A stretch of DNA of 64,000 bases from Gemmatimonadaceae bacterium (lineage in GTDB: Bacteria > Gemmatimonadota > Gemmatimonadetes > Gemmatimonadales > Gemmatimonadaceae). The notes under the pieces were generated by a model. That model was not told the origin of the DNA, did not search any database, and was given only the letters and a program-made list of their open reading frames with translations. Every line of letters starts with the position of its first letter. Within the stretch, counting starts at the first letter, position 1. Below, in pieces: positions 4,372 through 63,672 of the stretch. A program made the position numbers and the translations under genes. The stretch lies in the NCBI GenBank assembly GCA_019637355.1, contig JAHBVT010000001.1:1581192-1645191 (forward strand), given 5' to 3'.

Positions 4372-4375
4372 TGGA

Positions 4376-4435
4376 GACGGAAGACTGAAGACGGAAGAGA
4401 AGAGCGTACACTCCTTCCGTCTTCAGTCTTCCGTC
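4376..4435. repeat. Heptamer-repeat inverted pair between rpsT and the zinc-ribbon gene
   Basis: Two perfect 22-base inverted arms (4376-4397 and 4414-4435) surround a 16-base spacer. Each arm is three heptads plus one base: GACGGAA, GACTGAA, GACGGAA. It sits between the rpsT terminator and the stop of the minus-strand gene ending at 4443. It could act as a hairpin terminator for that gene, but it lacks a T-run. It belongs to the heptanucleotide family also seen near 15979, 18801, 38293, 44236 and 62115. Confidence 0.85.
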
Positions 4436-12899: not shown

Positions 12900-13391
12900 C
12901 TAGTCCCCTCGCCTGGCCCGGAAGAACTCTGTCAACAGCCGTGCCGCATCCTCCTCCCGTACCCCGCCCTGTACTTCCGGCCGATGGTTGAGCTTCGGAT
13001 GTCGCAGCAGGTCGTGGATGGACCCGACCATCCCCGCCTTCTCGTCCCACGCGCCGAAAACCACGCGCGCCAGCCGCGTGTGCAGGATGGCGCCGGCGCA
13101 CATCGCACAGGGCTCCAGCGTCACGTACAGCGTGGCCGAGGTGAGTCGCGTGTCGCCGATGGCGTAGGCCGCCGCCTTGAGCACACGCAGCTCGGCGTGC
13201 TGGGTCGCGTCCTTGCTCGCCACCATCGCGTTGCCGGCGCGAGCCATCACCTGACCGTTGTGCACGAGCACCGCGCCCACCGGGACTTCTCCCGTGCGCG
13301 CGGCCTTCTCAGCCTCGGCGAGCGCGAGGCCCATCCAATACGCGTCTTCCTCGGCGCGCGAGGAGAAGGTGACGGGTCCTGGGCTCGTCAC
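12900..13391 (-). CDS. tadA: tRNA adenosine(34) deaminase
   Basis: TadA converts A34 to inosine in tRNA-Arg(ACG), allowing wobble decoding. The 163 residues contain the zinc deaminase motifs: [10 protein letters not shown] (His ligand and catalytic Glu) near residue 65 and [11 protein letters not shown] (two Cys ligands) near 95, then [15 protein letters not shown] as in TadA proteins. The GTG overlaps the clpB stop as GTGA. The C-terminal [12 protein letters not shown] is the usual TadA helix. A related cytidine deaminase lies in the window but has different motifs. Confidence 0.94.
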
Positions 13392-15973
13392 GCGGCTGAT
13401 TCGAACTTGAGGGCGCCGCCCTGCACCGTCGCGACGATCGTATCGCCGTCGTGGAACTTGCCCTCGAGCAGCTCAAGCGCGAGTGGATTCTGCACCAAGC
13501 GCTGGATGGCGCGCTTGAGCGGCCGCGCCCCGAAGGCGGGGTCGTAGCCCTCGGCGGCAATCAGCGCCTTGGCCTCGTCGCTCAGCTGTAGCGTGATCTT
13601 GCGGTCGGCCAGCAGGCGGTCCATCCGCGCGAGCTGCAAGCCGACGATGTGCCCGATCTGGTCGGCGCCGAGCGGACGGAAGATGATGATGTCGTCCACA
13701 CGGTTGAGGAACTCGGGACGGAACTGCTGGCGCAGCGCCGCGGTGACCTGCGACTCCACCAAGGCCCAGTCGCTGCCGGCGTGCTCGAGGATCCAGGTGG
13801 AGCCCACGTTGCTCGTCATAATGATGACGACGTTGCGGAAGTCCACAGTCCGGCCCTGCGAGTCGGTGAGGCGGCCGTCGTCGAGGATCTGCAACAGGAT
13901 GTTGAACACGTCCGGGTGCGCCTTCTCGATCTCGTCGAAGAGCACGACGCTGTACGGACGCCGGCGCACGGCCTCCGTGAGCTGGCCGCCTTCGTCGTAA
14001 CCGACGTAGCCCGGCGGCGCGCCGACGAGACGGGAAACGGCGTGCTTCTCCATATACTCGGACATATCGATGCGCACCATCGCGTGCTCATCGTCAAACA
14101 GGAACTCGGCGAGCGCCTTGGCGGTCTCCGTCTTGCCGACGCCGGTGGGGCCGAGGAAGATGAACGAGCCGATCGGGCGATTGGGATCCTGCAGGCCGGC
14201 GCGCGAGCGGCGCACGGCGTTGGCCACGGCTTGCACGGCCTCGGTCTGCCCGACGACGCGCTTGGCGAGTTCCTGGTCCAGCTTGGCCAGGCGCTCGCGC
14301 TCGCCCTCGAGCATTCGCGACACCGGAATGCCCGTCCAGCGGGCGACGATCTCGGCGATGTCGTCGGCGCTGACTTCTTCCTTGAGATACCGCGCCTTGC
14401 CCGCCTGTTCGGCGAGGCGTGCCTCTACCTGCTTGAGCTCCTGCTCGAGCTTGGGAATCTGCCCGTACTGGATCTCGGCGGCCTTCTGCAGGTCGCCGCT
14501 GCGGGTGACCTGCTCGACCAGCGTGCGCGACTCCTCGATCTTGGCCTTGATGCGCCCGACCTCGCCGAGGGCCTCCTTCTCGAGCTGCCACTGCGCCTTC
14601 ATCGCGGCGCTCTGTTCCTTGAGCTGGGCGAGTTGCTGTTCGATGCTGCCGCGGCGCTCGACGCTGGCAGCGTCCTTCTCCTTGGCCAGCGCCTGCCGCT
14701 CGATCTCCAGCTGCACGACCTTGCGCTCGACCTCATCGATCTCCTGCGGCAGCGAGTCGATCTCGATGCGCATCCGCGACGCGGCCTCGTCCATCAGGTC
14801 GATGGCCTTGTCGGGAAGGAAGCGGTCACCGATGTAGCGGTTGGAGAGCGTGGCCGCCGCGACGACGGCACCATCGGTGATGCGCACGCCGTGGTGCGAC
14901 TCATAGCGCTCCTTCAAGCCGCGCAGAATGGCGATCGTGCTCTCGACCGTGGGTTCACCGACGAAGACCGGCTGAAAGCGACGCTCCAGCGCCGGGTCCT
15001 TCTCGACGTGCTTGCGGTACTCGTCCAGCGTGGTCGCGCCGACGACGCGCAGCTCGCCGCGGGCCAGCATCGGCTTGAGCATATTGCCGGCGTCCATCGC
15101 ACCCTCGGCCTTGCCTGCCCCGACCAGCGTGTGCAGCTCGTCGATGAACACGACGAACTTGCCTTCGCTGGCGGTGATCTCCTTGAGCACGGCCTTGAGG
15201 CGTTCCTCGAATTCGCCGCGGAACTTGGCGCCGGCGATGAGCGCGCCCAGGTCCAGCGAGATGAGGCGCTTGTTGCGCAGCGACTCCGGCACATCGCCGT
15301 TGACGATGCGCTGCGCGAGGCCCTCGGCGATGGCCGTCTTGCCGACGCCGGGCTCGCCGATGAGCACGGGATTGTTCTTGGTGCGGCGCGAGAGCACCTG
15401 CATCACGCGGCGGACTTCCTCGTCGCGGCCGATGACCGGATCGAGCTTGCCCTTGCGCGCGTCCTCCGTGAGGTCGCGGGTGAACTTCTGCAGCGCTTGG
15501 TACTGGTTCTCGGGCGTCTGGTCGGTGACGCGATGCGAGCCGCGGACGCTCTCCAGCGCCTCCTCGAGCCCGGCCTTGGTGACCCGCTGCGCCTTGAGCA
15601 GGTTGGCGGTCTCGGATCCCTTGGCCGTGGCCAGACCCAGCAGCAGGTGTTCGGTGGAGACGTATTCGTCCCCGAGCCGCTTGGCCTCGGCTTCGGCGGC
15701 ATCGAGCACGGCGCTGACCTCGCGCGCCAAGGTGGGCTGCGCGTCGCTCTGCTTGGGGTAGCGCGCGATTTCGCGCTCAGCCGCCTGCGTCAGCGCCGGA
15801 ATCCCGACGCCCAGCTTCTGCAGGATGGGCACGACGATGCCTTCGTCCTGCCGAAGCAGTGCGAGCAGCAGGTGCGTGTCGTGGACCTGCGGATTGCCAG
15901 CCTGACGCGCGATGGTGACGGCGTCAGTGATGGCTTCGCTGGACTTTACGGTGAGGCGGTCGGGGTTGAGCAT
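13388..15973 (-). CDS. clpB: ATP-dependent chaperone ClpB
   Basis: A hexameric AAA+ disaggregase that works with DnaK to rescue aggregated proteins after heat stress. Over 861 residues it shows the Clp N-terminal repeats ([19 protein letters not shown]), first AAA domain (Walker A GEPGVGKT near 206, Walker B VVFIDE), the long coiled-coil middle domain (about residues 405-530, [20 protein letters not shown]) and second AAA domain (GPTGVGKT). The middle domain identifies ClpB rather than ClpA or ClpC. No CIRCE element is seen upstream. The start codon is preceded by a pyrimidine-rich heptamer array with no Shine-Dalgarno sequence. Confidence 0.98.
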
Positions 15974-15978
15974 TTCGG

Positions 15979-16000
15979 GACGGATGACGGAGGACGGAAG
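15979..16000. repeat. Heptamer array abutting clpB start
   Basis: Three heptads, GACGGAT, GACGGAG and GACGGAA, read on the plus strand from about 15979. On the clpB sense strand this is a pyrimidine-rich leader that ends five bases before the ATG. A 21-base core is identical to the one before fbp (44236-44256). No GGAGG-type ribosome site is present between it and the start codon. Confidence 0.85.
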
Positions 16001-16110
16001 CTACGAGACCTACTGGGAGACGCGAGGTGATCAACGTGCGAGCGCCTCCTGACTCCGCTTGTCGCAACTCCTACGCCTTTCAAGTTACGCCGTTTCGGCA
16101 GGTTGGGACG

Positions 16111-16857
16111 TCAGGCGCTCAGCCGCTCCCACGACTGGAATGCCTGGAAGGCACGTCCGTCGCCCAAGTGCTCCTCAAGAAACTCGCGTAGCAGGCGCTG
16201 ATGCGCCTTGGCTGTGGGGATATCCTCTACAGGAATCTCCTGGCCGTGCATCCACCCGATGAGGGTCGTGCGCGCGCTCGCTGGCAGGGTGCGTGTACCG
16301 GGTACCAGCGTGCGGCAGGTCGCGCAGACGGCGCCGCCGCTGCGGTGCGCGAAGCGAACGTCCTCGTCTGGCCCGAGGTCCCGATGGCAGAGGGCGCAGG
16401 TCTCTAGCGTGGGCGCGAAGCCGAGTTCGGCGACGATGCGCCAGCCGACGGCGAGGGCTGCCGCCGTGACATCACTCTCAGCGCATGCGGTGAGCCGATC
16501 GAGCCCGTCTTGCAGGGCGTCGTGCACGCCCGCCGTGGCGTCGGTGCCGAAGCGCAGGCTGAGCTCGGCGAGCGCCGATGCGGCACCGAAGCGCTGCAGC
16601 GATCCAGCGAGCGCTGGCCGCGCCCGCTGTGCGTCGAACGCAACGAGGGTGTGCAGGTCCTTGCTCGGATGGATGAGCAGTTGCGCCGCGCCGCCCGTGA
16701 ACAGGTCTAATCCTTGCCCGAAGCGACTCTTCGGCCGCTTCGCGCCCTTGGCGACCGCCGCCAGCACGCCCGCGTCCCGCGTGGCGAGCCGCACGATGCG
16801 GCTCGTCTCGCGATAGTCGAAGGCGTGGAGGACGATGGCCGCAGTCTCGATCACCAC
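16111..16857 (-). CDS. recO: DNA repair protein RecO
   Basis: RecO loads RecA on gapped DNA with RecR. The 248 residues have the N-terminal OB-fold start (ETAAIVLHAFDYRETSRIVRL, trimmed here), the typical AKGAKRPKSRFGQGLDLFTGGA, and a zinc finger with CALC near residue 156 and CATC near 178. The start is a GTG at 16857 or the next codon. It overlaps the last codons of btuB by seven bases, an unusual link between a repair gene and a B12 receptor. It is followed by clpB after 137 bases. Confidence 0.93.
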   Translation of the reverse strand: MVIETAAIVLHAFDYRETSRIVRLATRDAGVLAAVAKGAKRPKSRFGQGLDLFTGGAAQLLIHPSKDLHTLVAFDAQRARPALAGSLQRFGAASALAELSLRFGTDATAGVHDALQDGLDRLTACAESDVTAAALAVGWRIVAELGFAPTLETCALCHRDLGPDEDVRFAHRSGGAVCATCRTLVPGTRTLPASARTTLIGWMHGQEIPVEDIPTAKAHQRLLREFLEEHLGDGRAFQAFQSWERLSA

Positions 16858-18800
16858 TCCAATCTAAGTCCCGCGTAGAGGATGCGGCCCGGGCTCTGGA
16901 ACCCGGCGATCTGGGTGAAGCGCACGTTGGTCAGGTTGTCCGCCCGCAGCACGAGCCGCGCGTCGGCGCCCAAAGTGCGAGGCAAGCGCAGGTCGGCACC
17001 GAAGTCCAAGGTGGTGAAGCCGCCCAGCGTGACGACGCCGGCCGGGAAGGTCGCGAAGTCGCGATCCTCACGCTCGCCAGTGCGCACGACGAGCAGCGAG
17101 AACGTCCCGAGCCCCTCGACGCCGCGCCGCAGTTGCAGCGTCGTCACGTTGCTGGGTCTCCGCAGCAGGCACCCTCCGGCCACGAAGGTCGCACTCGCGG
17201 TGGTGTCGAAGCCCGCTTGTGCCACGCGCGTGCTGGTCCAGGTGTGCCCCAGCGACGACTCGATGCCTACGACGGCCGGCAACGAGAGCTCAACTTCGAC
17301 ACCGCCGGCATTCGCGGCCACGATGTTCTCGTAGTTCGGCTCGCCGAAGGGCACGGCGCCGTTGTACTGGATCAGGTTGCGGAATCGCTGCGCAAAGCCG
17401 GTGACGGAGAACCGCGCCCCGGTCGCGAGCGAGACGTCCACACCGAGGTCGGCGGAACGCGACTCCTCGGGCTTGAGGTCGGGATTCCCGACCACGAAGC
17501 CGCCGGCAAAGTTCTCGAAGAAGTTCGGGGCCTTGAAGGCCGTGCCGACCGAGGTGCGCACGCGCAAGCCATCCGACACGCGCCAGCCCGCGCCGGCACG
17601 CGCCGTCTGGAATCGGCCGAAGGCGGAGTTGTCGTCGAGGCGTGCGCCCACGGTGTAGGCGAGTCGCCCGACCTCGCCCTGCCCCTGCGCGTACAGCGCA
17701 CGGTTCTCGCGGGCTGCACGGAGCTCATCGGGGAAGTCACCGAACTCGCTCTGGCTCACCGATGTCGTCCGCTCCTGGTCGCGTGCCCACTCGGCGCCGA
17801 ACGTCACCGCGTGCGCGTCGCTGAGCCGCAGGATGCTGCGCGCGTCGGCCATCCGCCGCTTCACCGCCCCGCGCGCGTAGTAGCCGTAGAAGCCGAAGGT
17901 ATCAGCGGGCGTGTCAGGGCCGTCGTTGGTGCGCGGAAGCAGGTCCATCCAGGTGTACTGGGCACGCGTCTCGAAGCGATCGGTCCAGCGGCGGCCGAGG
18001 TCCAGGCCGGCCAACACACGGTTCTCGGTGCGCTCGGCGTTGCGATCGTCGAGCTGCCCCGCCGAGCCCGTCGGATACTGGTACATCGAGTTGTTAAAGC
18101 GGCCGGTGACGCGCACATCCGTGCGCGCATCTGGCGTGAAGTCGAGCGCGCCGGAGACGCCGTCGTTGCGGTAGGCATTGTTGAACGCGAGGACTCCGTC
18201 CATCGCGTGACGGTCCGCTTGCAGCGTCCAGCCGAGCGCACGCGCCGAGCCGCTGGCGCCGAGCGACCCGCGCAGGGTGCCGAAGGACCCGCCACCGACC
18301 TCGCTGCGCAACCGCGTGGCGCCTGCGCCGCGTCGCGTGAAGATCTGTACGACGCCGGTCACGGCCTCGGAGCCATAGAGCACGCTGGCCGGGCCACGCA
18401 CGACTTCGATGCGCTCGACGTCATCGAGCGTGAGGCGGCCGAGGTCGAGCGTGCCGCCCGGTTCGTTGATGGCGACGCCATCCACCAGTACGCGCACATA
18501 GTTGCCCTGGCCGCCGCGCAGGAAGATCGTGTGCTGCGAGCCGATTCCGGAGCTGCGGGCCATCGCGATGCCGGGGATGCGGCGCAGCGCATCGCCGACG
18601 TGCGTGACGCCTTCGGCGCGAAGTTGGTCGCCGCCGAGGACCGAGACGGTGGCGGTTTGGGCGGTGAGCGGCGTGGGGGTGCGGGTGGCGGTGATGATGA
18701 GGGGGGGGAGGGAGTCTTGTGCTTCGACTCTAGGGTGGATCGCAATCGTGAATGCGAGCGCGATCAGGCTGAGAGACGGGAGGCGGGAGGTGGACAGCAC
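16851..18800 (-). CDS. btuB: TonB-dependent vitamin B12 receptor (BtuB-like)
   Basis: A 649-residue outer-membrane receptor. After a signal peptide (to about residue 27, VEAQ), a TonB-box-like stretch LPPLIITATRTPTPL precedes the plug, which contains VGDALRRIPGIAMARSSGIG, TIFLRGGQGNYVRVLVDGVA and DDVERIEVVRGPASVLYGSE. The barrel ends RILYAGLRLEW with the usual terminal aromatic. The B12 assignment rests on its place downstream of btuF-btuC-btuD and a cobalamin riboswitch, since sequence alone cannot separate it from siderophore receptors. The GTG start is preceded directly by a repeat array, with no Shine-Dalgarno. Confidence 0.85.
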   Translation of the reverse strand: MLSTSRLPSLSLIALAFTIAIHPRVEAQDSLPPLIITATRTPTPLTAQTATVSVLGGDQLRAEGVTHVGDALRRIPGIAMARSSGIGSQHTIFLRGGQGNYVRVLVDGVAINEPGGTLDLGRLTLDDVERIEVVRGPASVLYGSEAVTGVVQIFTRRGAGATRLRSEVGGGSFGTLRGSLGASGSARALGWTLQADRHAMDGVLAFNNAYRNDGVSGALDFTPDARTDVRVTGRFNNSMYQYPTGSAGQLDDRNAERTENRVLAGLDLGRRWTDRFETRAQYTWMDLLPRTNDGPDTPADTFGFYGYYARGAVKRRMADARSILRLSDAHAVTFGAEWARDQERTTSVSQSEFGDFPDELRAARENRALYAQGQGEVGRLAYTVGARLDDNSAFGRFQTARAGAGWRVSDGLRVRTSVGTAFKAPNFFENFAGGFVVGNPDLKPEESRSADLGVDVSLATGARFSVTGFAQRFRNLIQYNGAVPFGEPNYENIVAANAGGVEVELSLPAVVGIESSLGHTWTSTRVAQAGFDTTASATFVAGGCLLRRPSNVTTLQLRRGVEGLGTFSLLVVRTGEREDRDFATFPAGVVTLGGFTTLDFGADLRLPRTLGADARLVLRADNLTNVRFTQIAGFQSPGRILYAGLRLEW

Positions 18801-18880
18801 GGTTGGGAGAGGGGAGATGGGAGACGGTTGGGAGAGGGGAGATGGCGGGAGACGGGAGATGCGAGACGGGCGCGTTCCCG
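18801..18880. repeat. Heptamer array and 25-bp direct repeat abutting btuB start
   Basis: The plus strand reads as GAGAGGG, GAGATGG, GAGACGG heptads, then a second copy, then GAGACGG, GAGATGC, GAGACGG. Two direct copies begin at 18801 and 18826 (GGTTGGGAGAGGGGAGATGG, then GAGAC, with a 3-base insertion in the second). On the btuB strand it is C/T-rich and touches the GTG with no gap. It fills nearly all of the 84 bases between btuD and btuB. Confidence 0.85.
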
Positions 18881-21669: not shown

Positions 21670-21826
21670 GCGCGAACGTGGGTCGTCTCCTGGCTCCGGG
21701 CCGTCTCACTCACCTTCCCGCATCCCGCAGGATGCAGTGGCTGTGCTCGAGTGGACGTCTGTTGATGCCCGTTACAGTGGCGGGGCCGCGCCGGCATTGC
21801 ACCGGCTTCCGTGTCCCGCGTTCGCT
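21670..21826 (-). ncRNA. Cobalamin (B12) riboswitch
   Basis: The minus strand contains the cobalamin aptamer hallmarks: GGAAGCCGGTGCAATGCCGG (about 21810-21791), GCGCGGCCCCGCCACTGTAAC after it, and the B12 box GAGCCAGGAGACG (about 21695-21683). The closing stem pairs GCGAACGCGGG (5' end, near 21825) with CCCACGTTCGC (3' end, near 21671). It lies upstream of btuF, so it should repress import genes when adenosylcobalamin is plentiful. The strong sequence match makes this confident. Confidence 0.97.
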
Positions 21827-36342: not shown

Positions 36343-37377
36343 CTAAACGAGGTGGACCCGCCCCGTACCGGGACGGATGTGGCCGATGGTCCAGTTTGCG
36401 ACACCGGCCTGCGTTGCAACATCACGAATATAGGATGCACCGGCTGTGTCGGTAATCACAATCATCCCGATGCCCATATTGAAGGCGCGGTACATCTCCG
36501 CACGGTCAACCTGCCCGGCCTGCTCCAGTACCCTGAACAAGGGTGGAATGTCCCAACTGCCCGTGTCCACCACGGCGTCAAGATGTGACGGCAGGGCGCG
36601 GTCGAGATTGCCGGGGATTCCCCCGCCGGTGATGTGGGCCATCGCGTGAATGCGACCTAGCGCACCACCGAGCACCGGCAAGTAGGAGCGATGGACGGCC
36701 AACATCACGTCGGCGACGGTCTTGCCGCCGTGTTCGGGGAACGGATCGTGTGGCCCGAGCTTGAGGCGCTCGCTGATGATGCGCCGCGCCAACGAGTAGC
36801 CGTTGGTGTGGCAGCCGGTGGACGCGAGGCCGACGAGCACGTCGCCGTCCTTGACGCCCGCGCTGGTGATGACCTCGTCCTCTTCCACCCAGCCGACGAT
36901 GAAGCCGGCCAAGTCATAGTCCGGCGGCGTGTACACGCCCGGCATCTCGGCGGTCTCGCCGCCGATGAGCGACGCGCCGTTCTCGCGGCAGCCTGCGCTG
37001 ACGCCGGCCACGACGCCCTCCACCACCGACGGAATCAGCTTGCCGAACGCGACGTAATCCAAGAAGAACAGCGGCTTGGCGCCCTGCACCAGAATGTCGT
37101 TGACGCAGTGGTTGACCAGGCAGTGCCCGATCGTATCGTGGCGGTCCGCCTCGATGGCGGTCTTGATCTTGGTGCCCACGCCGTCGGCGCTGGCCACCAG
37201 CAGCGGCTGGCGCGCACCCTCCGGCACCCGGAACATCCCACCGAATCCACCGAAGGCACCGCGCGCGCCGGCCGTGAACGTGCTCTCGACCAGCTTCTTG
37301 ATGCGGTGCTTCGAGTCGTCCGCGGCGTCGATGTCGACGCCGGCGCTCGCGTAGGTCAGCTTCTCGTCGGCGCTCAC
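36343..37377 (-). CDS. purM: Phosphoribosylformylglycinamidine cyclo-ligase
   Basis: AIR synthetase, 344 residues, step five of purine synthesis (FGAM + ATP to AIR). Motifs: LTYASAGVDIDAADDSKHRI at the N-terminus, LVASADGVGTKIKTAIEADR, HCLVNHCVNDILVQGAKPLF, IGGETAEMPGVY and GGGIPGNLDRALP. The GTG overlaps the pfkB stop (GTGA). The fold is a PurM/SelD-type dimer with ATP bound at the interface. Confidence 0.97.
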   Translation of the reverse strand: MSADEKLTYASAGVDIDAADDSKHRIKKLVESTFTAGARGAFGGFGGMFRVPEGARQPLLVASADGVGTKIKTAIEADRHDTIGHCLVNHCVNDILVQGAKPLFFLDYVAFGKLIPSVVEGVVAGVSAGCRENGASLIGGETAEMPGVYTPPDYDLAGFIVGWVEEDEVITSAGVKDGDVLVGLASTGCHTNGYSLARRIISERLKLGPHDPFPEHGGKTVADVMLAVHRSYLPVLGGALGRIHAMAHITGGGIPGNLDRALPSHLDAVVDTGSWDIPPLFRVLEQAGQVDRAEMYRAFNMGIGMIVITDTAGASYIRDVATQAGVANWTIGHIRPGTGRVHLV

Positions 37378-38291
37378 GCGTTCAGCGCCCGGTCGAAGGT
37401 GACCAATTGGTGGAACTCCCCGACGCGGCGCTCGATGTCGTCGGCGCTGACCTCCAGCAGCCGCTGGAGCGAGAAGCCCTCGACGACGAACGATCCCATC
37501 GCCGAGCCCACGACGACCGCGCGACGCATATTGGCCTCCGAGAGATCGCCCGTGCGAGCCAACCAGCCCATAAAGCCGCCGGCAAACGAATCGCCAGCCC
37601 CAGTCGGATCGAAGACGCTCTCCAGCGGGTACGCCGGCGCGAAGAACACGCTGCTCGCGGTGAACATAAACGCGCCGTGTTCCCCCTTCTTGATGAGCAC
37701 GGTCTTAGGCCCGCGGGCGAGGATCCAGCGCGCCGCCTGCACGAGGTTGGCCTGCTCGGTGAGCTGCCGCGCCTCGGCGTCGTTGAGCGTGATGAGGTCC
37801 ACCTTGCCGAGCAGGTCGAGCAGGTCCGCGCGGCGCGACTCGATCCAGAAGTTCATCGTGTCGCAAGCCACCAGCCTGGGCTTCTCGACCTGTCCGAGCA
37901 CCTCGAGCTGCAGGCGCGGGTCGATGTTGGCGAGGAACACATACTCGGCCGAGCGGAACTGCGTGGGAATCTTGGGCCGGAAGTGCGAGAATACGCCGAG
38001 GCGCGTCTCCAGCGTCTCGGCGGAGTTGAGGTCGTGCCGGTAGCGACCGCGCCAGCGGAACGACTCGCCCTCGGCCGTCTCGAGGCCGGCGAAGTCGATG
38101 CCGCGGGCCTTCAGCGGCTCGAGCTTCTCCATCGGGTAGTCGCTGCCGACGACGCCGACAAGCTGCACCGGCGTCTGGTGCGAGGCCGAGGCGGCGAAGT
38201 AGTTGGCCGAGCCGCCGAGGACCTCGTCGGCTTTGCCGAAGGGAGTCTCAACGGAATCGAGGGCGACGCTACCGACAACGAGAACGGACAT
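37374..38291 (-). CDS. PfkB-family sugar/nucleoside kinase
   Basis: A 304-residue kinase of the ribokinase/PfkB family. Signature one is around GGSANYFAASASH near residue 25; signature two is VFDPTGAGDSFAGGFMGWLA near residue 232 with catalytic Asp. The substrate is not clear: adenosine, ribose or another sugar. Coupling to purM suggests nucleoside-related metabolism, but this is inference. The ATG at 38291 has no Shine-Dalgarno; a heptamer array lies one base upstream. Confidence 0.92.
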   Translation of the reverse strand: MSVLVVGSVALDSVETPFGKADEVLGGSANYFAASASHQTPVQLVGVVGSDYPMEKLEPLKARGIDFAGLETAEGESFRWRGRYRHDLNSAETLETRLGVFSHFRPKIPTQFRSAEYVFLANIDPRLQLEVLGQVEKPRLVACDTMNFWIESRRADLLDLLGKVDLITLNDAEARQLTEQANLVQAARWILARGPKTVLIKKGEHGAFMFTASSVFFAPAYPLESVFDPTGAGDSFAGGFMGWLARTGDLSEANMRRAVVVGSAMGSFVVEGFSLQRLLEVSADDIERRVGEFHQLVTFDRALNA

Positions 38292-38292
38292 T

Positions 38293-38335
38293 GGACGGAA
38301 GACGGAGGACTTAAGACGGAGGACGGAAGGGAACG
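38293..38335. repeat. Heptamer array abutting pfkB start
   Basis: Plus-strand heptads GACGGAA, GACGGAG, GACTTAA, GACGGAG, GACGGAA run from about 38294, then a degenerate GGAACGG. On the pfkB sense strand it is pyrimidine-rich and ends one base before the ATG. This is the longest clean run of the family here. Confidence 0.88.
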
Positions 38336-38348
38336 GCACCTGCCACGG

Positions 38349-38474
38349 CAACTGCAGCCGCACCTGCAACTGCGACCGCACCTACAACTGCGACCGCACC
38401 TACAACTGCGACCGCACCTACAACTGCGACCGCACCTACAAACCCAACCGCGCCTACCATCCCAACCGCAGCCG
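38349..38474. repeat. 18-bp tandem repeat between argS and pfkB
   Basis: Seven consecutive 18-base units begin with CAACTG or a variant. Units two to five (38367-38438) are identical, CAACTGCGACCGCACCTA; unit one differs at two positions, and units six and seven are degenerate. The array lies beside the heptamer array. No gene occupies the region. It resembles a minisatellite rather than a CRISPR, since there are no unique spacers. Confidence 0.9.
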
Positions 38475-43220: not shown

Positions 43221-43224
<4 letters not shown>

Positions 43225-44231
43225 CCCTTGGCCAGCATCTCGGCCGCAATCTCCACGTCGGCCTTGGAGCCGACGAAGTACGGCGAGCGCTGATGCAGCT
43301 TGGTCGGCTGGACCTCGAGAATGCGACGCTGGCCATCGATGGCCGCGCCGCCGGCCTGCTCACAGATGAAGGCGAGAGGGTTGCACTCGTAGAGCAGGCG
43401 GAGCTTGCCGTCGGGGCTCTTCGTGTTGGCGGGATACGCAAAGAGACCGCCACCCAGCAAGTTGCGATGGAAGTCCGCCACCAGCGAGCCCACGTAGCGC
43501 ACGTTCATCGACTGGCGCTTGCCGTCGAGCCCGCGGTAGCGGCGCATCAGGGCGCGCACCGGGTCGGACCAGTCCTGTTCATATGCATCGTTCACGCTGA
43601 GATACCGGCCGTGCTCCGGGATCCGCATATCGGGATGCGAGAGCAGGAACTCGCCGATCGAGGGGTCGAGCGTGAAGCCGTGCACGCCGCGGCCGGTGGT
43701 GTACACCAGCATCGTGCTCGAGCCGTAGATGACGTAGCCAGCCGCCACCTGCTTGAGGCCCGGCTGCAACGCGTCTTCCATCGTGGCGCGTTCCCCCTCG
43801 CTCACCTTCTTGAGCACCGAGAAGATCGTCCCCACCGGCACGTTCACGTCAATGTTGGACGATCCGTCGAGCGGGTCGAAGAGCAGCACGTACTTGCCGC
43901 GCTTGAACTTCTCGGGGATGTGGATGAGTTCCGGTTCCTCTTCGGACGCCATCGCGCAGAGGCGGCCGCCGTGGTCCAGCGCCTTCACGATGATGGTGTT
44001 GGCGATGACGTCGAGCTTCTGCTGGGCCTCGCCCTGCACGTTGTCGCTGCCCTGGGCGCCGAGGATGTCGACGAGGCCGGCCAGGCGCACCTTGCTGGCG
44101 ATCATCTTGCTGGCCAGCGCGAGGTCGTAGAGGATGCCCGAGAGCTCACCGGTGGCGTCGGGGAAGCGACGCTCTTGTTCGATGATGTAGCGCTCGATGG
44201 TGACGACGGAGTAATCGGTGTGGTTGACCAC
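43221..44231 (-). CDS. fbp: Fructose-1,6-bisphosphatase class 1
   Basis: Class 1 FBPase (336 residues) hydrolyses fructose-1,6-bisphosphate in gluconeogenesis. Motifs: metal site [10 protein letters not shown] and [20 protein letters not shown] near residues 115-134, then [20 protein letters not shown] and the C-terminal [19 protein letters not shown] with [20 protein letters not shown]. The GTG at 44231 is preceded by a heptamer array at 4 bases and no Shine-Dalgarno. It overlaps the mutase gene downstream. Confidence 0.97.
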
Positions 44232-44235
44232 GATC

Positions 44236-44258
44236 GGACGGATGACGGAGGACGGAGG
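44236..44258. repeat. Heptamer array abutting fbp start
   Basis: Plus-strand heptads GACGGAT, GACGGAG, GACGGAG lie four bases upstream of the fbp GTG (44231-44229 on the minus strand). Its first 21 bases are identical to the array before clpB, 28 kb away. It is pyrimidine-rich on the sense strand. Confidence 0.85.
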
Positions 44259-61297: not shown

Positions 61298-63672
61298 ATG
61301 TTCTTCACCTGCGTGGCCTCGCGCAGGAACTCACGTCCTTCGCCCTCGGCCACGGCATACCAGTCGGTGAGACCAGCGTGGCACCAGGTGCGCTTCATAT
61401 TGTGGGCGCTGGCCAGCTCCACGGCCTTCACGCCCTCGCGCGTGCCCCAGTACCAGATGCCCTCCACGTCGTCGTGCTCGGCCAGCGTCTTGGCCAGCGC
61501 GTCCTTGCCGCCGGTGACGATGTTGATCACGCCGCCGGGCAGGTCGGAGCTCTCGAGCACCGTGTAGAGGTCGGTGGCCGAGAGCGGATGCGGCTCGCTG
61601 GGCAGGGCGACCACGGCATTGCCCGTGGCCACCAACGGCGCGACCGCTGAGATGAACCCGAGCAACGGCGCTTCGTTCGGCGCTGCGACCGCGACGACGC
61701 CGATCGGCTCGTTCATCTGCAGCGCCACGCCGCGGATCGGCACATTGTGCACCGCCCCGTCCCACTTGTCTGCCCAGGCCGCGTAGCTAAACAGCCGCGC
61801 CACGGCGGCCTCGACTTCACGCTTGGCCTGCGCCGCCGTCGCGCCGGTCTGCGCCCGCAACCGCGCCGCAAACTCGTCGCCGCGCGCAGCGAGGTTCTCG
61901 CCGATGTAGTAGAGGATCTGTGCGCGCAGATGGCCGGTGGACTTGCTCCAGCCCTTCGCAGCCGCGTGGGCGGCTTCGACGGCGTTGCGAAGATCCTTCC
62001 TGTTGCCTTCACCGACTTCTCCGAGCTTCTGGCCCTTCGGGCCAGTGACTTGGCGTGAGTAGCCGCTGTCGGGTCGCGCTTGCTTGCCAGCGATGAAGAG
62101 CTTGGGGGTGCGGTCGACTCCGTCACTGGACGTGAGACTTGAGACGTGAGACGTGGGAGCGCTGCGCTTCTCCACCGCTCGACGAACACTCACGTCCCCC
62201 GTCCCCCGTCTCACGTCTCGCTTCACATACTCATACATCCCTTCCCGCCCACCCTCGCGTCCAAACCCAGACTCCCGGTACCCCCCAAACCCCGCCGCCG
62301 CATCAAACAGATTCGTGGCGTTGATCCACACCACGCCCGCCTTGAGCTTGGGCGCGATATCCAGCGCGAGATTGATGTTTTCGCTCCACACGCTGGCCGC
62401 GAGCCCATACGGCGTGTTGTTCGCCAGCGCGACCGATTCTTCCGGCGTGCGGAAACTCATCGCGACGAGCACGGGGCCGAAGATCTCCACCTGCGCGATG
62501 GTGCTCGCGGGTTCCACGTTGGTGAACAGCGTCGGCGGATAGAAGCAACCGTTCTTCGGCACGCTCCAGCTGGGCTGCCACATCGTGGCGCCTTCGTCGC
62601 GGCCCTGCTTCACCAGCGCGGTGATGCGCTCCAACTGCTCGGGCGCGACGATGGCCCCCATATCCACGGCTTTATCGAGCGGCTTGCCAACTCGGAGCTT
62701 CTCCATCCGCGCGCGGATCTTCTCGATGAGGCGGTCGTGGATGCCCTCCTGCACCAGCAGGCGCGAGCCGGCGCAGCAGACCTGCCCTTGGTTGAACCAG
62801 ATGGCGTCCACCACGCCCTCGACGACGGCGTCGAGGTCGGCGTCCTCGTACACGATGAACGGCGACTTGCCGCCGAGCTCGAGCGAGAGCTTCTTGCCGC
62901 TGCCGGCCGTGGCGCGGCGGATGATCTTGCCGACGTCCGTCGAGCCGGTAAACGCAATCTTGTCCACGCCCTTGTGCTCGACGATCGCTGCGCCCGTCTT
63001 GCCGTCGCCGGTGACGATGTTGAGCACGCCCGGCGGCAGCCCGGCCTCGTGCGCCAGCTCCGCGAAGAGCAGCGCGGAGAGCGGCGTGAACTCGGCGGGC
63101 TTCATCACGACTGTGTTCCCGGCGGCGAGCGCGGGCGCGACCTTCCACGCCAGCATCAGCAGCGGGAAGTTCCAGGGGATGATCTGCCCCACCACGCCCA
63201 CCGAGCCGTAGCCGGCGAACTCCTGCTCCATCAACTGCGCCCAGCCGGCGTGATGGTAGAAGTGCCGCGCCACGAGCGGGATGTCCAGGTCGCGCGTCTC
63301 GCGGATGGACTTGCCGTTGTCCATCGACTCCACCACCGCGAGCAGGCGCGAATGCTTCTGCACCATCCGCGCCAGCGCGTACAGGTGCTTGGCGCGCTGA
63401 TGCCCGCTGAGCTTGCTCCAGCTGCGATGCGCCTTGCGCGCCGCGGCGACGGCGGCGTCCACGTCCTTGGCCGTGCCCTGCGTGACCTTGGCGAGCACGT
63501 CCGTCGTGCTCGGATCGATGACCTCGAAGGTGCTGCCGGGCTTGGTCCAGGCCCCGTTCACGAAGTGCCCGAACTTGCTGCCGTGCTCGGCGAGCCAGGC
63601 GCGCGCCTCGGCGTCGCTCTCCGGCGCCGGGCCGTAGTCCATCGTCTTGAAGATCTCGGCGACTGTAGGCAT
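61276..63672 (-). CDS. ALDH16-type tandem-domain aldehyde dehydrogenase
   Basis: A 798-residue aldehyde dehydrogenase with two ALDH domains, as in the ALDH16 family. The N-terminal domain (about 1-480) has NAD site GQIIPWNFPLLMLAWKVAPA, the Glu motif LELGGKSPFIVYED and the catalytic Cys in FNQGQVCCAGSRLLVQ. The C-terminal domain (from about 520) keeps the fold (QMNEPIGVVAVAAPNEAP) but lacks the catalytic Cys motif. Residues about 480-520 between domains are encoded by a heptamer-repeat inverted pair. The ATG overlaps the deoC stop by one base (TGATG). Substrate unknown. Confidence 0.92.
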   Translation of the reverse strand: MPTVAEIFKTMDYGPAPESDAEARAWLAEHGSKFGHFVNGAWTKPGSTFEVIDPSTTDVLAKVTQGTAKDVDAAVAAARKAHRSWSKLSGHQRAKHLYALARMVQKHSRLLAVVESMDNGKSIRETRDLDIPLVARHFYHHAGWAQLMEQEFAGYGSVGVVGQIIPWNFPLLMLAWKVAPALAAGNTVVMKPAEFTPLSALLFAELAHEAGLPPGVLNIVTGDGKTGAAIVEHKGVDKIAFTGSTDVGKIIRRATAGSGKKLSLELGGKSPFIVYEDADLDAVVEGVVDAIWFNQGQVCCAGSRLLVQEGIHDRLIEKIRARMEKLRVGKPLDKAVDMGAIVAPEQLERITALVKQGRDEGATMWQPSWSVPKNGCFYPPTLFTNVEPASTIAQVEIFGPVLVAMSFRTPEESVALANNTPYGLAASVWSENINLALDIAPKLKAGVVWINATNLFDAAAGFGGYRESGFGREGGREGMYEYVKRDVRRGTGDVSVRRAVEKRSAPTSHVSSLTSSDGVDRTPKLFIAGKQARPDSGYSRQVTGPKGQKLGEVGEGNRKDLRNAVEAAHAAAKGWSKSTGHLRAQILYYIGENLAARGDEFAARLRAQTGATAAQAKREVEAAVARLFSYAAWADKWDGAVHNVPIRGVALQMNEPIGVVAVAAPNEAPLLGFISAVAPLVATGNAVVALPSEPHPLSATDLYTVLESSDLPGGVINIVTGGKDALAKTLAEHDDVEGIWYWGTREGVKAVELASAHNMKRTWCHAGLTDWYAVAEGEGREFLREATQVKNIWIPYGE
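62115..62225. repeat. Heptamer-repeat inverted pair inside ALDH16 coding sequence
   Basis: The plus strand shows GACGTGA, GACTTGA, GACGTGA, GACGTGG from about 62119. About 60 bases on, the opposite orientation contains GACGTGA, GACGGGG, GACGGGG, GACGTGA. The two arms can fold back. They lie between the two ALDH domains and keep the reading frame, encoding a basic/Ser/Thr-rich linker (RRGTGDVSVRRAVEKRSAPT). Confidence 0.75.

Follow-up and report, generated by a model that had tools for sequence, protein, structure and literature searches.

Facing arrays of seven-base units at the borders of intergenic gaps in a Gemmatimonadaceae genome

The stretch considered here is a 64,000-nucleotide segment of contig JAHBVT010000001.1 (positions 1,581,192 to 1,645,191, forward strand) from a Gemmatimonadaceae bacterium (assembly GCA_019637355.1), called the window below; its GC content is 69%. 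It carries short arrays of tandem 7-base units, or heptads, four of which lie immediately upstream of unrelated minus-strand genes (clpB, btuB, pfkB and fbp). An earlier note had described these four as a family that abuts start codons and takes the place of the Shine-Dalgarno (SD) site. It had missed an inverted pair of arrays, a further set of facing tracts near the end of the window and the abutment of stop codons. The arrays and the genes beside them are as follows.

4375..4395: AGACGGAAGACTGAAGACGGA, the left arm in an inverted pair that lies between two convergent open reading frames (ORFs), behind a U-tract terminator
4416..4435: TCCGTCTTCAGTCTTCCGTC, the right arm; the two arms are predicted to fold into a 60-nt hairpin (-42 kcal/mol, z -10)
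13388..15973, minus strand: clpB, 861 amino acids (Pfam ClpB_D2-small, AAA_2, Clp_N)
15979..15998: three-unit array GACGGATGACGGAGGACGGA (mRNA TCCGTCCTCCGTCATCCGTC), 5 nt upstream of the clpB ATG; single arm without a partner
16851..18800, minus strand: btuB-like TonB-dependent receptor gene
18801..18880: irregular GGGAGAYG-type heptads filling the whole gap upstream of btuB; distance to the GTG about 0
37374..38291, minus strand: PfkB-family carbohydrate kinase gene, start MSVLVVGS set by the ortholog in G011
38293..38327: five-unit array with a degenerate third unit, 1 nt upstream of the pfkB ATG
43221..44231, minus strand: fbp, fructose-1,6-bisphosphatase
44236..44256: three-unit array GGACGGATGACGGAGGACGGA, about 5 nt upstream of the fbp GTG; single arm
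62129..62219: GACGTGA-type heptads facing CGTCCCC/CTCACGT heptads, within a long minus-strand ORF

The arrays at clpB, pfkB and fbp consist of GACGGAN heptads and lie where they had been reported. The btuB tract is repetitive too; it is an irregular relative of the GACGGAN unit rather than a regular array. All four end 0-5 bases from the start codon, and no SD site intervenes. For pfkB, clpB and fbp the starts themselves are sound: an in-frame stop directly precedes MSVLVVGS in the sister species G011, the clpB start is kept in 12 members of the genus, and the GTG-GTCAA-CA start of fbp is kept in Gemmatimonadaceae records. The btuB GTG is preserved in G011. The relatives of fbp come mostly from Gemmatimonadaceae metagenome-assembled genomes, at 76-80% identity.

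A genome-wide search for heptads had been named beforehand as a check on the four arrays. The exact three-unit pattern GACGGANGACGGANGACGGA has 206 matches in the 3.15-Mb genome, and the reversed pattern, used as control, has none. For array anatomy, the window was combined with 40 stretches of 20 kb taken at even spacing, 864 kb in all or roughly a quarter of the genome, and genes were predicted by a purpose-built codon-usage caller that may misplace single starts. This sample holds 65 arrays, 59 of them intergenic, against one in the reversed control. Genome-wide enrichment beside start codons was indeed found, as had been proposed, but stop codons are abutted at least as often: of the 61 arms that lie in simple gaps, 36 have a stop as their outward border and 25 a start. 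One inverted heptad pair lies within a called ORF (L061, 4292-4358) and seems to have been inserted into a gene, not a gap.

Position relative to gene borders is far from random. Forty-nine of the 61 arms lie within 15 nt of a border, whereas 14.8 are expected and the maximum in 5000 placements is 28; for 55 of the 61 the outward boundary is also the nearer one. Polarity is uniform, left arms reading GACGGA.. and right arms TCCGTC.., so that the strand is purine-rich when read away from either neighbouring gene. In 23 cases two arms face each other across a core (GACGGA.. core ..TCCGTC); every pair found in the 864 kb has this arrangement. Among gaps of at least 40 nt, arrays occur in 10 of 41 convergent, 28 of 219 codirectional and 2 of 91 divergent ones, and one of the two divergent-gap arrays in fact lies behind tRNA-Ser. 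A tRNA-Val gene is bordered by arrays and a tRNA-Leu gene has arrays nearby. In 21 codirectional sites with paired arms, the arm on the stop side lies closer to its codon than the arm on the start side does (medians of about 5 and 13 nt, p=2e-4). Several of the tests reported here were chosen after inspection of the data, and their p-values are indicative.

Facing pairs, avoidance of divergent gaps, the tighter stop flank and the tRNA borders together favour an element that brackets gaps rather than a start-codon device. The reading we prefer, although we give it somewhat less than an even chance, is that the arrays form a lineage-specific family of intergenic bracket elements, comparable to repetitive extragenic palindromes (REPs) and bacterial interspersed mosaic elements (BIMEs) and located mainly around gaps behind gene 3' ends. 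Two tandem-heptad arms, GACGGAT-type on the left and its reverse complement on the right, would flank a variable core, with outer ends at the neighbouring gene boundaries (some 5 nt behind stops and 13 nt before starts). From this observed layout we infer an action in RNA, where pairs could serve as BIME-like intercistronic or 3'-end hairpins that would seal or stabilise the upstream message, and arms may extend terminator-like stems between convergent genes. The four arrays first reported would then be single or decayed arms of the family, facing starts by chance.

Folding is consistent with such a role at the paired sites. With mononucleotide shuffles generated by script as reference, facing pairs fold much better than shuffled sequences (z -2.3 to -16), and arm identity within pairs exceeds that of shuffled pairs (p=0.005). 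In convergent gaps the core itself is often a GC-rich hairpin resembling a terminator, which the arms lengthen, and one pair sits behind a true U-tract terminator. The cores between paired arms are otherwise mostly unrelated to one another, and a single shared mobile core was rejected on this ground.

The principal competitor on the start side is a translation-initiation leader, in which the pyrimidine-rich array would recruit S1 or cold-shock proteins (OB-fold proteins with a footprint of about 7 nt) to genes lacking an SD. An SD is present at 2 of 21 array-start genes compared with 38% of other genes (p=0.006), or 31% in gaps of at least 30 nt (p=0.047); the majority of genes in this genome lack one. 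The proposal that the array replaces an SD suits fbp, whose family relatives have GGAG- or GAGG-like sites, but not clpB, where relatives without the array are likewise without an SD. Heptad leaders precede clpB in 5 of 12 genus members, proteins with a cold-shock domain are encoded in 14 of 17 genomes, and pyrimidines are in excess upstream of starts genome-wide. This excess (about 0.57-0.59 upstream of starts, with a purine excess, about 0.45-0.47 pyrimidine, after stops) was measured across G000 and G011, and in G000 the skew holds outside heptad arrays too. Against a leader function, stops carry arrays equally, tRNA genes are bordered by them, and among single arms those facing a start are not overrepresented (13 vs 12). 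Apart from glmS, discussed below, the arrays are not restricted to gene starts at a functional spacing, the distance from arm to start ranging from -5 to 18 nt for most. Strong period 7 is found at 2 of 184 divergent starts and 14 of 222 codirectional starts (p=0.009), and this near absence at divergent starts is evidence against a general initiation signal. Taken with the stops, tRNA genes and facing pairs, it means that the pattern does not match that of a start-codon or translation device as such. It had also been suggested that the mRNA form carries CCUCC, the core of the anti-SD sequence. By eye, about half of the start-facing arms do; the commonest unit, TCCGTCA, does not, and the anti-SD idea was rejected on that account although the 16S rRNA has a normal CACCTCC tail. 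As an explanation of the arrays a translation leader is thus unlikely, though it may hold for a subset of genes such as glmS.

The MCGIVGYIG terminus, which includes the catalytic Cys2, fixes the ATG of glmS. In each of the 14 genus members examined, the 35 nt upstream are 69-89% pyrimidine and contain no SD-like 4-mer. Their mean identity at lag 7 is 0.59, compared with 0.28-0.34 at other lags and a shuffled maximum of 0.42, and 12 of the 14 have their best lag at 7. The unit often differs by species (TCCGTCC, CTTCCGT, CCCATCT, CCCACCT, CCTCCAG, AACTCAC and others). No such mean periodicity was found in the glmS leaders of 28 genomes of other genera, 10 of which have an SD-like 4-mer. A speculative and rather doubtful extension is that the genus holds a cis-element recognised by period and polarity instead of sequence: place, periodicity and pyrimidine/purine polarity would be kept while the unit is replaced by species, as in the glmS leader, perhaps as a platform offering several binding sites to an RNA-binding protein of OB-fold type and 7-nt footprint.

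Replacement of the unit is also seen away from glmS. The exact GACGGA pattern occurs in 5 of the 41 genomes searched among relatives, all of the same genus, and most sampled genus members have heptads of their own: AGTTGGG and AGATGTA in G011, AGATGGG in G009, GACGGAG and AGTTGTG in G015, GACGGAA in G007. Within the 80 kb examined of G010 no heptads were found, and some of the comparison genomes are fragmented. Of 200 genomes from the phylum, 31 match a relaxed AGWYGKN pattern, and all 31 belong to two families within one order; some of these match the reversed control as well, that is, they hold other heptads. Between G000 and G011, nine orthologous gaps have heptads in both genomes, 18 and 3 in one only and 65 in neither (odds ratio 10.8, p=4.7e-4), and in the shared gaps the letters are usually unrelated. 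Three other gaps contain an element in G000 and just 5, 6 or 19 nt in G011, so gain and loss of arrays occur too. At one of them (L044, 518-598; 19 nt in G011) orthologous gaps of other species (L261, L267 and L268) are occupied by long palindromes whose repeats are of CACAGAGACACAGAG type or similar; this gap appears to attract differing hairpin families across species.

These data bear on the other main competitor, border-limited neutral slippage. Heptads would expand by slippage and hairpin-templated copying in unconstrained DNA and halt at coding borders, position reflecting tolerance and not function. Variation of units between species, the coming and going of arrays in the sister species and the patchy occurrence in the phylum agree with this, and the similarity of arms within pairs fits templated copying. 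Slippage alone leaves several things unexplained: why the arms have an outward polarity, why in larger gaps they sit at the borders instead of in the middle, why divergent gaps so seldom hold them, and why the glmS tract persists in 14 of 14 species. We regard it as possible, though on balance improbable as a full account. Under the bracket reading, slippage would instead be the way in which units turn over, one arm being copied against the other, and such templated turnover would let position, period and complementarity outlast the letters.

Several observations weigh against the bracket reading. Single arms account for 25 of 54 sites, clpB and fbp among them, and the leaders of these two genes fold no better than shuffled sequences (z -1.6 and +0.4), so a hairpin there was rejected. 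No U tract was seen, by eye, after right arms. Most of the 14 glmS leaders lack significant folding, which implies that the tract itself, not a hairpin, persists there. The co-occurrence of heptads in G000 and G011 could partly stem from a small number of permissive gaps.

The nearest precedents are the TAACTGA heptamers of marine Beggiatoaceae and the REP/BIME elements, and neither matches fully. The former comprise about 170 intergenic sets of 2-6 direct copies, many ending a few nucleotides from start codons, with SDs rare and no functional gene class (MacGregor 2015, PMC4679880). The unit length, the intergenic location, the rarity of SDs where an array precedes a start and the lack of a functional gene class are shared. 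However, Beggiatoaceae sets abut starts, are unpaired and rarely face stops, whereas here inverted pairs dominate without a predominance of start orientation; the units (GACGGAN, AGTTGGG, AGATGTA, AGATGGG and so on) are not TAACTGA or near variants of it, and they differ between related species at orthologous gaps. REPs, including those tagged with CGTC, are intergenic, form head-to-head dimers and hairpins in codirectional and convergent gaps, and lie mostly downstream of coding regions (PMC3733652). The head-to-head pairing and the preference for convergent and codirectional over divergent gaps are found here as well. The REP unit differs in being a small palindrome with a short loop and a GTAG or CGTC tag, a structure not seen here, where arms are non-palindromic heptad tandems of variable number, complementary to the partner arm only. 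Effects on mRNA stability or gyrase binding are a further feature of the known REP/BIME class.

The resemblance to REPs raises the question whether a transposase moves the arrays as miniature mobile elements of REP or MITE (miniature inverted-repeat transposable element) type. Sites that are empty in the sister species, the palindromic architecture and the REP-like gap preference (PMC3733652) would accord with this. On the other hand, no Y1 transposase of the REP-associated tyrosine transposase (RAYT) family (PF01797) was detected in 17 genus genomes, in which control searches were positive, and a REP/RAYT origin was rejected for this reason. Moreover, the cores are mostly unrelated, an arm that stands alone is no palindrome, arm length changes in steps of whole heptads, and units differ between species at orthologous gaps. 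Mobility by such a route is very improbable.

Short tandemly repeated repetitive (STRR) sequences and other long heptanucleotide repeats of cyanobacteria and Xanthomonas (PMC4692102; Mrazek 2007, cited by PMC4679880) are likewise of period 7, mostly intergenic and genome-specific. Within the literature searched, no report of such repeats in Gemmatimonadota was found. We know of no description of inverted gap bracketing by STRR-type arrays. The novel part, unit turnover at fixed places with a fixed period, could not be matched to anything known.

In the window, an 18-bp tandem repeat CAACTGCGACCGCACCTA occupies 38349-38470 in the gap between argS and pfkB, and shorter AACTGC/AACTAC runs are found in other gaps (L041 near 15600, L052 near 13500). 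At 21685-21810 the minus strand carries a Cobalamin riboswitch (RF00174, 73.7 bits), placed ahead of the genes that lead to the btuB-like receptor. An inverted-repeat motif GCCGAAACGGCG with a GGCGTAG..TTGC segment (16060-16110) is found again ahead of clpB in several members of the genus (L120-L130); it resembles a heat-shock operator or promoter.

The short repeats of bacterial gaps tend to be dismissed as clutter or assigned to a single fixed sequence family. The occupation of the same gaps by different units, together with the period-7 leader of glmS, amounts to a natural experiment that separates sequence from structure and period, and that can decide between two views of heptads, as products of slippage or as a structural or translational device. 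If they are functional, such elements would be overlooked by standard motif searches because the motif changes between species.
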